From contig NZ_BATP01000056.1 in the NCBI RefSeq assembly GCF_000739615.1, forward strand, positions 1 through 64,000: a DNA stretch of 64,000 bases. Direction: 5' to 3'. The DNA is from Haloferula sp. BvORR071 (GTDB lineage: Bacteria > Verrucomicrobiota > Verrucomicrobiia > Verrucomicrobiales > Akkermansiaceae). Positions within the stretch are counted from its first letter, which is position 1, and each line of letters begins with the position of its first letter. The notes beneath the pieces were generated by a model. It worked only from the letters and a program-made list of their open reading frames with translations, was not told where the DNA came from and did not search any database. Position numbers and translations under genes: made by a program. Below, piece by piece: positions 4,233 through 52,304 of this stretch.

Positions 4233-5225
4233 ATGCCACCCACCCGCCGCCAAGTCCTTCACACCCTTGCCGCCACTTCCGTCTTCCCGCTGCCCTTGGG
4301 CGCGGCGGCGGAGGGCAATGCGCAGGCCTCGTCTAACAAACTCCGCATCGGCCTGATCACGGACATCCACAAGGATATCATCCACGATGCGGATGCGCGG
4401 CTCACCGCCTTCATCGACGCGATGCTGGCGGAGAAGGAGAAGGTGGATGCCATCATGCAGTTGGGCGACTTCTGCATCCCCAAGCCCGTGAACCGCGACT
4501 TCCTCGCGATCTTCAACCGCTTCCCCGGGCCGAAGTATCACGTGCTCGGCAATCACGACATGGATGGCGGCTTCAAGCGCGAGCAGGCCGTCGCCTTCCT
4601 CGGCATGCCCGCGCGCTACTACTCCTTCGATCTCGGCGGCTGCCACTTCATCGTGCTCGATGGCAACGACATGCCACCGGATTGGAAGGGCGGCTATCCC
4701 GCCTACCTCGCGGCGGACCAAGTGGCCTGGCTGGAGAAGGACCTCGCCGCCACGCAGCTCAATACCTTCATCATCTCCCACCAGAGCCTCGAGCATCCCT
4801 CCTGCATCGCGAACCAGGCCGAGGTCCGCAAACTCATCGCCGCGGCGCGCACCGCGGAGGGCAAGCCGAAGGTCGCCGCCTGCTTCAATGGCCACTGGCA
4901 CATTGATCATGCCCGGCGCATCGATGGCATCCCCTATGTGCATCTCAACTCCGCTTCCTACTTCTGGATGGGCAGCGAGTATCGCAGCGAGCGCCTGGAG
5001 CCGGAGCTGGCGAAGAAATTCCCGCACGTCTCCTCCACCGCGCCCTATGCCAAGCCGCTCTTCACCGTGCTGGAGATCGATCCCGCTGCCGGGAAGTTCT
5101 CCCTCCGCGCCGCACCCGGCGAATGGCTCAAGCCCGACCCTGCCGAACTGCACTATAGCAATCCGGTCATCGAGCCGGACTGGATCCGCCCCGAGATCCG
5201 CGCGGTGGATTCGGCGAGGGTGTAA
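4233..5225 (+). CDS. Tat-exported calcineurin-like metallophosphoesterase
   Basis: This is a 330-aa protein. A short twin-arginine signal (PPTRRQVLHTLAATS) opens the protein and gives an exported phosphoesterase. Metal-binding motifs are GLITDIHKD (DxH), MQLGDFC (GD), VLGNHDMDGG (GNHD), ISHQSLEHP (H) and FNGHWHIDH (GHxH). The fold matches the cyclic-nucleotide phosphodiesterase/acid-phosphatase-like branch, but the substrate is not readable. The residues between motifs differ strongly from the neighbouring 306-aa enzyme, so the two are not a recent duplication. Start ATG 4233 is kept because the RR motif follows directly. Confidence 0.9.
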   Translation: MPPTRRQVLHTLAATSVFPLPLGAAAEGNAQASSNKLRIGLITDIHKDIIHDADARLTAFIDAMLAEKEKVDAIMQLGDFCIPKPVNRDFLAIFNRFPGPKYHVLGNHDMDGGFKREQAVAFLGMPARYYSFDLGGCHFIVLDGNDMPPDWKGGYPAYLAADQVAWLEKDLAATQLNTFIISHQSLEHPSCIANQAEVRKLIAAARTAEGKPKVAACFNGHWHIDHARRIDGIPYVHLNSASYFWMGSEYRSERLEPELAKKFPHVSSTAPYAKPLFTVLEIDPAAGKFSLRAAPGEWLKPDPAELHYSNPVIEPDWIRPEIRAVDSARV

Positions 5226-49768: not shown

Positions 49769-51007
49769 TCAATTCACCCCGGCCGTCTCCAGCTCCTGCT
49801 TCGGCCCGAAGAACTCGAAGTGCACCTGCGATCCCGGAATCCCCCAGGCCAGCAGCTGCCGGTAGATCGATGCCATGAAGGGCTTCGGCCCGCAGAAGTA
49901 GTAGTCGCAGTCCCGCTGCGGCACCAAGCGCTCGATCAACTCCGCATCGATGAAGCCCTCGCTGTCATACCAGAGCTCATCGCGGCCCCAGTCCGCCTGC
50001 TCCGCCTCGCTGTAGCGCACATGCACCTTCAGCTTCGGCTGTCCTGCTGCGAGTTCCTTCAGCTTGTCCCGGAAGGCATGGGTCCGCCCGTTCAGCGCAC
50101 CATGGATGAAGATCACCTCGCGCTCCGGCTGCTCCTTCAGCACGGCCTCCAGCATCGCCAGCACCGGCGTGATTCCCACACCCGCGGAGAGCAGGACCAG
50201 CGGCCGCTGGTGATGTTCCGTTAGATCCAGGAAGAAGTCTCCGCATGGCGGCCCCACCTGCAGCTCCGCACCTTCCGGCAGCCCGTGCAGATAGCCGGAT
50301 ACCGCCCCCTGCGGCTCCGCCTTCACGCTGATCCGGAAGTGCTCCGCATGCGGCGCGCTGGAGAGGCTGTAGTTGCGCATCGTCGTGCTGTTAGAGTCGA
50401 AGGGCACCTGCACCGTCAGATACTGCCCCGGCTTGTAGGCCGGCACCTTGCTGCCATCCACCGGTTGCAGATACAGCGAGGTGATCACCTCGCTCTCCAC
50501 CACCTTGCGCGCGATCCGGAAGGGCTTGAAGCCATTCCAGCCGTGCTCCGCCTTCGCCTGACCCTGATAGATCTGCCCCTCGCGGCCGATCAGGATATTC
50601 GCGAGGAAGCCATAGGCCTCCGCCCACGCATCGATGATCTCATCCGTCGCCGCCGCACCCAGCACCTCGCGGATCGAGGCCAGCAGGTTCGCGCCCACGA
50701 TCGGATAATGTTCCGGCAGGATCCGCAGGCCGGCATGCTTCTGCGCGATCGTCTCCACCGCCGCACCCAGCACCTCGAGCTGATCCACATTCGCGGCAAA
50801 GGCACAGATCGCTCCCGCCAGCGCTCGCTGCTGCGTGCCCGCGTGCTGGTTCGAGCGGTTGAACAAGGGCGCCACCTCCGGATTCTCGCGGAACATCCGA
50901 TTGTAGAAGTGGCGGGTCAGGAGTTCGCCGTTCTGCTCCAGTACCGGGGCGGTGCTCTTCACCACCGCGATTGTCTTGTCACTCAGTCCGAAGTTTTCTG
51001 TGCTCAT
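49769..51007 (-). CDS. hmp: Flavohaemoglobin, nitric oxide dioxygenase
   Basis: The start at ATG 51007 (MSTENFGLSDKTIAVVKSTA) gives 412 aa, close to the 395-400 of the family. The globin domain (1-140) carries the proximal haem region IAQKHAGLRILPEHY. The FAD domain has RNYSLSSAP and the NAD domain has LVLLSAGVGITPVLAML and YFCGPKPFM. It converts NO and O2 to nitrate using NAD(P)H in the cytoplasm, and protects against nitrosative stress. It is divergent from a Crp/Fnr regulator with a matching palindrome between them. Confidence 0.95.
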   Translation of the reverse strand: MSTENFGLSDKTIAVVKSTAPVLEQNGELLTRHFYNRMFRENPEVAPLFNRSNQHAGTQQRALAGAICAFAANVDQLEVLGAAVETIAQKHAGLRILPEHYPIVGANLLASIREVLGAAATDEIIDAWAEAYGFLANILIGREGQIYQGQAKAEHGWNGFKPFRIARKVVESEVITSLYLQPVDGSKVPAYKPGQYLTVQVPFDSNSTTMRNYSLSSAPHAEHFRISVKAEPQGAVSGYLHGLPEGAELQVGPPCGDFFLDLTEHHQRPLVLLSAGVGITPVLAMLEAVLKEQPEREVIFIHGALNGRTHAFRDKLKELAAGQPKLKVHVRYSEAEQADWGRDELWYDSEGFIDAELIERLVPQRDCDYYFCGPKPFMASIYRQLLAWGIPGSQVHFEFFGPKQELETAGVN

Positions 51008-51066
51008 CAGTGTGCGGATAGCCAAGGGCGGCTCCTTTCCATGGACAACCCCGCGGCCACCGCGAA

Positions 51067-51082
51067 TTTGACCTGCGTCAAA
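51067..51082. promoter_or_regulatory. FNR/DNR-like operator TTTGACCTGCGTCAAA in the hmp promoter
   Basis: The palindrome has half-sites TTGAC and GTCAA separated by 4 bp. This is the FNR-type spacing and a one-base variant of TTGAT-N4-ATCAA. It lies between the divergent hmp and Crp/Fnr genes and has a twin upstream of the truncated haemoglobin. Confidence 0.75.
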
Positions 51083-51099
51083 TCTCCTCCACATCCGCC

Positions 51100-51822
51100 A
51101 TGACCGACGTCGATACGATCCGCACCGCAGCCCTCGCCCAAGAGCTCCAAGCCTGCTCGATCTTCTCCGGCTTGGGCACCAGCGAGCTCAGCCAGATTGC
51201 CGGCTACTGCGAGCGCATCCCCCTCGTGAAGGATGAGATCCTCTTCCGCGAGGGCGACCCCGTGATCGGCTTCTACATCGTGCTCAAGGGCTGCATCAAA
51301 GCCTACCGCATCGGCGAAGGTGGCAAGGAGCAGGTCATCCACCTCATCCACCCGAATGGCTCCTTCGCCGAGCCCGCCGTGGCCGGGCTGCCCGGCTACC
51401 CCGCGCATACGAAGGCTCTCGAAGCCAGCGAAGTCGTGCTGGTGAAGTCGGCGCCCTTCCTCGAGCACCTGCGCGTCAATTCCGAGCTCGCGCTGCGCAT
51501 CCTCGCCTCACTCAGCCGCCACCTCCACGAGCTGGTCAGCACCATCGATAGCTACCGTCTCCGCAATGCCGAGACGCGCCTGCTCCACTGGCTGCTCCAG
51601 CGCGCTGGCAATGCCACCTCGGGAATCTCCTTCGAGCTCAGCATTCCAAAATCCGTCCTCGCCTCCGAACTCGGCACCCGCCAGGAAACGCTCTCGCGGC
51701 TCTTCGCCACCTTGCGACGCAAGAACATCGTCAAGGTCAAGGGCAAGACCATCACCATCAGCGACCCGGCGGCACTGAAGGCTCTCTTCGACGATAATCT
51801 GCGTAAGAGCGGCCCGGAATAG
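51100..51822 (+). CDS. Crp/Fnr-family regulator of the nitric oxide response (DNR/NNR-like)
   Basis: The 240-aa protein has an N-terminal cyclic-nucleotide-type beta barrel (about 20-130) and a C-terminal winged helix (about 175-225). The recognition helix RQETLSRLFATLR carries the E-x-x-S-R pattern of FNR proteins, which contacts TTGA half-sites. The N-terminal cysteines (19, 37, 65) are not spaced as in the FNR iron-sulfur cluster, so it is more like NO-sensing DNR/NNR proteins that bind haem. The divergent hmp, a nearby truncated haemoglobin and the shared palindromes make them its likely targets. Confidence 0.88.
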   Translation: MTDVDTIRTAALAQELQACSIFSGLGTSELSQIAGYCERIPLVKDEILFREGDPVIGFYIVLKGCIKAYRIGEGGKEQVIHLIHPNGSFAEPAVAGLPGYPAHTKALEASEVVLVKSAPFLEHLRVNSELALRILASLSRHLHELVSTIDSYRLRNAETRLLHWLLQRAGNATSGISFELSIPKSVLASELGTRQETLSRLFATLRRKNIVKVKGKTITISDPAALKALFDDNLRKSGPE

Positions 51823-52237
51823 CGGGCAGGGGAGTGATCGCCGCAGCTTGCAGCCGCGAGTGGATCACATTCGCCATGTCCGCCGCCACCCGCTTGATGT
51901 GCTCCGCATTCTCGCCCGCGAAGTCCGCGTCCACCGCCTGCTTGAAGAGCAGCAGCCAGCCATCGAACATCGCGCGATCCATCGTGGCATCGCGGGTCAG
52001 CGCGAAGTGCGCCGCCAGCGGGTTGCCCTTGTAGCCACCCGTGCGGAACAACACCGTTTCCCAGAAATCGCATAGCTTGGGAATGTGCTCATCCCAATTC
52101 ACCCGCGCGATCACATCGAAGACCGGTCCCAGCACCGCATCCTGCCGCACCATCGCATAGAAACGATCCACCAGGATCTCGATCTCCGGTCGGCCCAGGA
52201 TGTCGCCCTTCAAGTTCACGCAAGCTTGCGTTTCCAT
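51758..52237 (-). CDS. Truncated haemoglobin, group III type
   Basis: The 159-aa protein matches the group III (P-type) truncated haemoglobins: VDRFYAMVRQDAVLGPVF, NWDEHIPKLCDFWETVLF, YKGNPLAAHFALT with the proximal His at about 77, and FDGWLLLFKQAV. It binds O2 or NO; group III members are linked to NO and reactive-oxygen handling, though the reaction is less settled than for Hmp. The last 20 residues overlap the 3' end of the convergent regulator gene by 65 nt, which is unusual. It has its own copy of the hmp-type palindrome upstream. Confidence 0.87.
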   Translation of the reverse strand: METQACVNLKGDILGRPEIEILVDRFYAMVRQDAVLGPVFDVIARVNWDEHIPKLCDFWETVLFRTGGYKGNPLAAHFALTRDATMDRAMFDGWLLLFKQAVDADFAGENAEHIKRVAADMANVIHSRLQAAAITPLPAIPGRSYADYRRREPSVPPGR

Positions 52238-52290
52238 GGCCGGATACTCGCGCCCGCTCCGCCCCGCCGCCAGCCATCCCTTCCCGGGAA

Positions 52291-52304
52291 TTGACCCAAG
52301 TCAA
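52291..52304. promoter_or_regulatory. FNR/DNR-like operator TTGACCCAAGTCAA ahead of the truncated haemoglobin
   Basis: The half-sites TTGAC and GTCAA with a 4-bp spacer are the same as in the hmp promoter. It lies 54 bp upstream of the haemoglobin start codon, within a normal promoter range. A forward gene starts at 52389, so the site could also affect that promoter. Confidence 0.75.

Follow-up and report, generated by a model that had tools for sequence, protein, structure and literature searches.

The layout closest to the locus described here is that of NssR in Campylobacter jejuni, likewise a Crp/Fnr-family protein that stands over two globins, Cgb and Ctb, one of them truncated, and that uses an FNR-like palindrome (PMC1274295, PMC4601167). 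Our locus occupies positions 49,769 to 52,304 of the first 64,000 nucleotides of contig NZ_BATP01000056.1 of Haloferula sp. BvORR071 (the whole stretch analysed, hereafter the window). It holds a flavohaemoglobin gene (hmp), a divergent gene for a Dnr-like Crp/Fnr-family regulator and a gene for a group III truncated haemoglobin, with one palindrome upstream of each globin gene. While NssR has the motif TTAAC-N4-GTTAA, the specificity positions A180/Q181 (PMC1274295) and a single-domain protein as its second globin, the Haloferula locus presents TTGAY-N4-RTCAA, the recognition motif ETLSR and a flavohaemoglobin. DNR of Pseudomonas likewise has an E-T-x-S-R helix and an FNR-box-like site; its predicted or known targets are nir and nor genes and, once, hmp, and its published consensus is TTGAT-N4-ATCAA (PMC1274295), whereas the fifth base here is C or T. 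HcpR of delta-proteobacteria and cyanobacteria shares the motif core: TTGAC-N4-GTCAA was already published for it in 2005, as wyTTGACnnnnGTCAArw, and in two cyanobacteria the HcpR gene and its target, hcp or norB, are transcribed divergently, like the regulator gene and hmp here (PMC1274295). HcpR controls hcp, and no Prismane (Hcp) gene is found in the Haloferula genome, so HcpR-type control of hcp does not apply. NsrR and NorR also exert nitric oxide (NO)-related control of hmp, but they are other regulators with other motifs (PMC1274295). Against this background, the NO-defence regulon that we propose for the locus is very probably real, and it belongs to a type already described rather than to a new one.

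The reading that we favour, with a probability of about 0.8, is a small nitrosative-stress regulon run by the Dnr-like protein. A regulator dimer, probably with haem, would be activated by NO and would bind TTGAY-N4-RTCAA through its ETLSR recognition helix. The bound regulator would activate hmp, which encodes an NO dioxygenase, together with the group III truncated haemoglobin gene, and the site common to hmp and the regulator gene would probably also feed back on the latter. In this scheme we infer the DNA binding, activation rather than repression, the NO signal and the haem cofactor.

Comparison across the order carries the argument. We searched 386 genomes of the order and, in a second search, 57 relatives, the Haloferula genome being counted in both. 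Orthologues of the regulator are patchy: they occur in 19/386 genomes at E ≤ 1e-35 and in 7/57 relatives at E ≤ 1e-10, which combine to 21 loci in 20 genomes. Genomes called regulator-free have none at these respective thresholds, and weaker homologues may exist in them; start codons of relatives are those projected from alignments, not annotated ones. Flavohaemoglobin is present in 21/386 genomes at E ≤ 1e-90. Where hmp adjoins a regulator orthologue the site is found in every case (8/8), centred 62–67 nt upstream, seven times as an exact TTGAY-N4-RTCAA and in G122 with one mismatch. Where hmp has no adjoining regulator it is found in none (0/13), the best match there showing 3–4 mismatches to TTGAC-N4-GTCAA. 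For the hmp of G297, the homologue match begins at residue 49. Upstream of the regulator gene, TTGAY-N4-RTCAA lies within 250 nt in 17 of the 21 loci, Haloferula included, whereas the remaining sequence of the loci gives an expectation of 0.14; the reversed control has zero matches inside or outside these upstream segments and therefore says little. This co-occurrence with the regulator is observed directly, as are the gene identities, the palindromes and their conserved position, and it bears out the proposal, made in a preliminary description of this DNA, that regulator and palindromes belong together. A distant relative met in a contig scan (an Accumulibacter metagenome-assembled genome, 28%) has no match with up to one mismatch in 10.6 kb and is excluded from the counts.

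Within the window, TTGAC-N4-GTCAA is matched exactly by TTGACCTGCGTCAA and TTGACCCAAGTCAA and nowhere else, giving 2 matches where 0.02 would be expected, and at least two such matches were reached in 0 of 100 shuffles. The preliminary description had reported two palindromes with the same half-sites and 4-bp spacing, and both lie exactly where it placed them. The whole genome (7,795,129 bases) contains three exact matches against two of the reversed control pattern, and 71 against 77 when one mismatch is allowed. In number the exact motif shows no enrichment, and what distinguishes it is where it lies: the centres of its three sites fall 67 nt (hmp), 60 nt (globin) and 42 nt (a third gene) upstream of likely starts. 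A genome scan had been named as a check; it puts 3/3 exact sites shortly upstream of genes and shows no excess by count. These counts, so close to the control, are what one would expect if the two palindromes were a coincidence in a GC-rich genome. That explanation is hardly credible in view of the 8/8 against 0/13 hmp genes and of the regulator loci, where the sites far exceed expectation. With the degenerate pattern TTGAY-N4-RTCAA the Haloferula genome has 16 matches against 6 for the control, and of the 13 besides the three exact sites 10 lie inside predicted coding sequence, as assigned by a simple codon-usage caller made for this analysis. A side observation concerns TTGACACAGATCAA at contig position 306715 of L169 (G000:C45:304200-309200), outside predicted coding sequence, with its centre 72 nt ahead of a long open reading frame (ORF; 816 codons, cut by the stretch), which is possibly a weak further target.

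The DNA specificity that these sites imply fits the recognition helix. FNR has a recognition helix of the E-x-x-S-R type, and the motif of DNR is ETFSR. The regulator orthologues read ETLSR in 19/21 cases, Haloferula included, ETFSR in G046 and ATLSR in G288, whose regulator gene has no site upstream. The E-x-x-S-R pattern noticed earlier is therefore present, in the form ETLSR. This helix and the TTGA-type half-sites upstream of 17/21 regulator genes point to a specificity of the FNR/DNR type. A further suggestion, that C at half-site position 5 marks a variant specificity of the group, is rejected: orthologous promoters carry either C or T at this position, so that C is not group-specific, and the globin sites of G272 and G132 (TTGATCCGGATCAA) and the hmp site of G264 (TTGATCCCCATCAA) are perfect FNR boxes. 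Mixed half-sites have been described elsewhere, as TTGAC and TTAAC in the Fnr/Dnr sites of Dinoroseobacter (PMC5398030).

The truncated globin is present in 71/386 genomes at E ≤ 1e-20, and from these we scored 30 loci and 5 more for the site. It is found at −53 to −60 in the Haloferula copy and in its three closest homologues, G272, G132 and G036 (64–71% identity). In these three genomes it stands at −53 to −56, and the globin gene lies well away from that of the regulator. The globin loci of regulator-free genomes have the site in 0/25 cases. At the G013 globin a degenerate TTGATCGCAATCTC with two mismatches lies at −54. The four genomes with a globin site suggest that the globin is a member of the regulon, a case weaker than that of hmp and the regulator. 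In G053 (L033:10975-12534, G053:C86) a radical-SAM/SPASM gene stands directly ahead of the truncated globin gene, and the site lies in front of this radical-SAM gene. The pair runs divergently from the regulator gene, and the palindrome that separates them is exact.

The anatomy of the hmp promoter bears on the mode of control. From palindrome to hmp ATG the distance is exactly 55 nt in 6/8 promoters, 56 in G010 and 60 here. A TTG recurs at a fixed offset in 7/8 hmp promoters, a count reached by 0/5000 shuffles (6/7 if the close relatives G272 and G132 are counted once). One of four globin promoters, that of G272, has TTG and ATG at the same offsets as the hmp promoters. With the palindrome at −61.5 the TTG would be a −35 element. 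This suggests, less firmly than the points above, class I activation near −61.5 and an almost leaderless mRNA starting at about the hmp ATG; alternatively, class II activation with a 20-nt leader may apply. The fixed distance and the −35 position of the TTG fit an activator, and activation is also the role ascribed to DNR and NssR (PMC1274295, PMC4601167). Both facts speak against a repressor that covers the promoters and is released by NO in the manner of NsrR. The palindrome does end 18 nt before the start codon of the regulator, where self-repression is plausible, and repression of some genes by HcpR has also been considered (PMC1274295); overall we regard a repressor as improbable.

The start of hmp in this genome is uncertain. 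Close Hmp homologues align from residues 4–8, numbered from ATG 51007, and the spacing in orthologues suggests a start at an ATG some 55 nt away from the palindrome. The other candidates, picked by eye, are ATG 51094, upstream of the palindrome with its frame open, and the in-frame TTG 51026, with AGGAG 6 nt before it. The intergenic status of TTGACCTGCGTCAA needs a start at ATG 51007 or TTG 51026, not at ATG 51094. That of TTGACCCAAGTCAA needs the right-hand neighbour of the globin gene, whose frame is open from 52200, to start at the in-frame ATG 52389.

The neighbours of distant regulator orthologues are informative about the signal. NO-reductase-like operons adjoin the regulator in G047, G199 and G202 (the genes scanned were of the COX1 family and, in one operon, also a cytochrome c gene); their genes presumably correspond to norB, norC, norQ and norD. 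In G301 and G330 the orthologue has hcp (Prismane, E about 1e-166) as its neighbour, and in G065 a nirK-like gene that passes the TIGR02376 cut-off. The remaining neighbours are the radical-SAM and globin pair of G053 and, in G291, a relative of the c-type protein treated below. Five of the 13 distant loci (G352, G288, G046, G191 and the second G053 locus) have no obvious NO gene; only one neighbour in these five was scanned with Pfam, a HlyD-type protein in G352. On L034 (G046:C364), at 4920-4933, an exact TTGACCCGCGTCAA precedes a 642-aa ORF by about 33 nt, and the same small contig holds a regulator orthologue.

The best solved relative of the regulator is Pseudomonas DNR (3dkw, E 1.5e-29). 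A profile of eight orthologues sharpens this match to 7.5e-36, with the next Protein Data Bank (PDB) match at 5.1e-30. Because of this relationship to DNR we infer haem-based NO sensing. His141 is invariant in 21/21 orthologues. The DNR-HcpR group is described as NO sensors with metal cofactors such as haem (PMC12750200). An oxygen-sensing FNR with a [4Fe-4S] cluster, over globins serving as low-oxygen genes, would share the recognition helix and account for the perfect FNR boxes among the sites, and FNR structures are among the next matches in the PDB. FNR has the cysteine pattern C-x2-C-x5-C. No such pattern is seen in the 21 orthologue rows, cysteines 19, 37 and 65 of the Haloferula protein are not conserved in them, and G036, 69% identical, has no cysteine at all, which argues against an FNR-type cluster and agrees with the preliminary description in this respect. 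The commonest cysteine, at position 169 in the C-terminal part (17/21 orthologues), is absent from the Haloferula protein and from G036. As the neighbours of the orthologues are moreover NO genes, an FNR of this type is very improbable. A second possibility is that the regulator works but senses something other than NO via haem, for example another ligand of the cNMP fold, or binds DNA constitutively. NssR offers a precedent: its affinity for DNA is high with or without NO, and the mechanism by which it senses is given as unknown (PMC4601167). With DNR as the best solved relative and no cysteine common to the eight closest orthologues, we consider another signal unlikely, although it deserves some weight.

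Several observations weigh against the NO-responsive regulon that we favour. Four of the 21 regulator loci lack an exact site in the 250 nt: G122 (one mismatch), G288, G202 and G046. Genome-wide counts of TTGAY-N4-RTCAA do not follow the presence of the regulator: the regulator-free G009, G003 and G007 have 12, 8 and 5 sites against 2, 5 and 2 for the control, and the regulator-bearing G132, G264 and G122 have 6, 7 and 2 against 7, 12 and 5. Only 4/10 globin copies of regulator-bearing genomes have the site, and the globins of G013, G122 (two copies), G202, G053 and G065 have no good site of their own. No canonical −10 box is seen by eye in the promoters examined, and no NCBIfam regulator model matches the regulator over its cut-off. 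Key haem-binding residues, finally, are poorly conserved between HcpR and DNR (PMC12750200).

The third exact site of the genome, outside the window, precedes the gene of a 415-aa protein with one CxxCH (L004:7538-8785, minus strand, G000:C63). The protein belongs to a family of mono-haem c-type proteins, apparently secreted, that is present in 237/386 genomes of the order at E ≤ 1e-30. A single-sequence search with the Haloferula member gives no match in Pfam, NCBIfam, PHROGs or PDB; a 13-member set shows a weak resemblance to NapB around the haem motif (PDB E 0.032; Pfam in 1/13 members, E 0.0084). Among close orthologues the site is found at 0/29 loci with up to one mismatch, some of these loci being cut by contig ends and the regulator-bearing G010 and G013 being included, and the third site is rejected as a conserved target. 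Two of the 29 have a match with two mismatches within 400 nt upstream (L075 at −384, L088 at −33). Family members do appear in 7 of the 72 hmp, globin and regulator loci scanned (7 genomes; several places are doubly represented among the 72). In G132 and G272 the site lies between the globin gene and a divergently oriented member; in G051, G082, G160 and G257, where no regulator was found, a member follows hmp on the same strand; and in G291 a member identified as a partial match adjoins the regulator. Because of these occurrences we retain, as a tentative and somewhat doubtful idea, a third arm of the regulon in which this family would take part in handling NO outside the cytoplasmic membrane.

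The features of the locus are collected in Table 1.

Table 1. Genes, predicted sites and other elements of the Haloferula locus, in window positions.
Feature	Positions	Strand	Remarks
hmp, flavohaemoglobin (NO dioxygenase), 412 aa from ATG 51007	49769..51007	-	NCBIfam and Pfam
TTG, candidate −35 element	51046..51048	-	20–22 nt after palindrome, hmp side
Palindrome TTGACCTGCGTCAA	51068..51081		Between divergent hmp and regulator genes; predicted regulator site common to both
Crp/Fnr-family regulator, Dnr-like, 240 aa	51100..51822	+	Pfam HTH_Crp_2 and cNMP_binding over cut-off
Tail-to-tail overlap of regulator and truncated-globin genes, 65 nt	51758..51822	.	ORF coordinates
Group III truncated haemoglobin, 159 aa	51758..52237	-	PDB relative 2ig3
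Palindrome TTGACCCAAGTCAA	52291..52304		Centre 60 nt upstream of truncated-globin start; predicted regulator site

The hmp product matches NCBIfam NF009805, 'NO-inducible flavohemoprotein', with 544.3 bits (cut-off 432), and has the globin, FAD and NAD domains of Pfam. The regulator scores 56.6 bits for PF00027 and 57.8 bits for PF13545, both over cut-off, which places it in the Crp/Fnr superfamily. It is the one HTH_Crp_2 protein of its genome over cut-off, with three weaker matches below, and the genome has no second homologue of it at E ≤ 0.001. Among solved structures, 2ig3 ('Group III truncated haemoglobin', E 7.4e-12), which we take to be Campylobacter Ctb, is alone in matching the truncated globin at E ≤ 0.01; the Pfam Bac_globin score of the globin, 20.5 bits, is slightly under the cut-off of 21. 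The tail-to-tail overlap of the regulator and globin genes, already noticed before, is confirmed from the ORFs. It starts at about globin residue 139, and most homologues align only to residues 127–143, some to 150–157. The overlap shows no sign of function, since the two genes are widely separated in G036, G132 and G272. As to an NO source in the Haloferula genome, a NirK search gives none over cut-off and two matches far below, nirS, nor and nos not being searched for. G010, a congeneric relative with regulator and hmp, encodes elsewhere in its genome a copper nitrite reductase that passes the NCBIfam cut-off (L178, G010:C1:1176070-1176951), a possible internal source of NO.

These results provide a testable NO-defence regulon in an order for which we found no such description in the open-access literature, judged from titles and abstract openings. 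They also add an independent example of pairing by a Crp/Fnr protein: just as NssR pairs two globins in Campylobacter, the regulator here appears to join a flavohaemoglobin and a group III truncated haemoglobin in one regulon, and this independent pairing supports a role of group III truncated globins in NO defence. The unnamed haem protein family is a further candidate for such a role.

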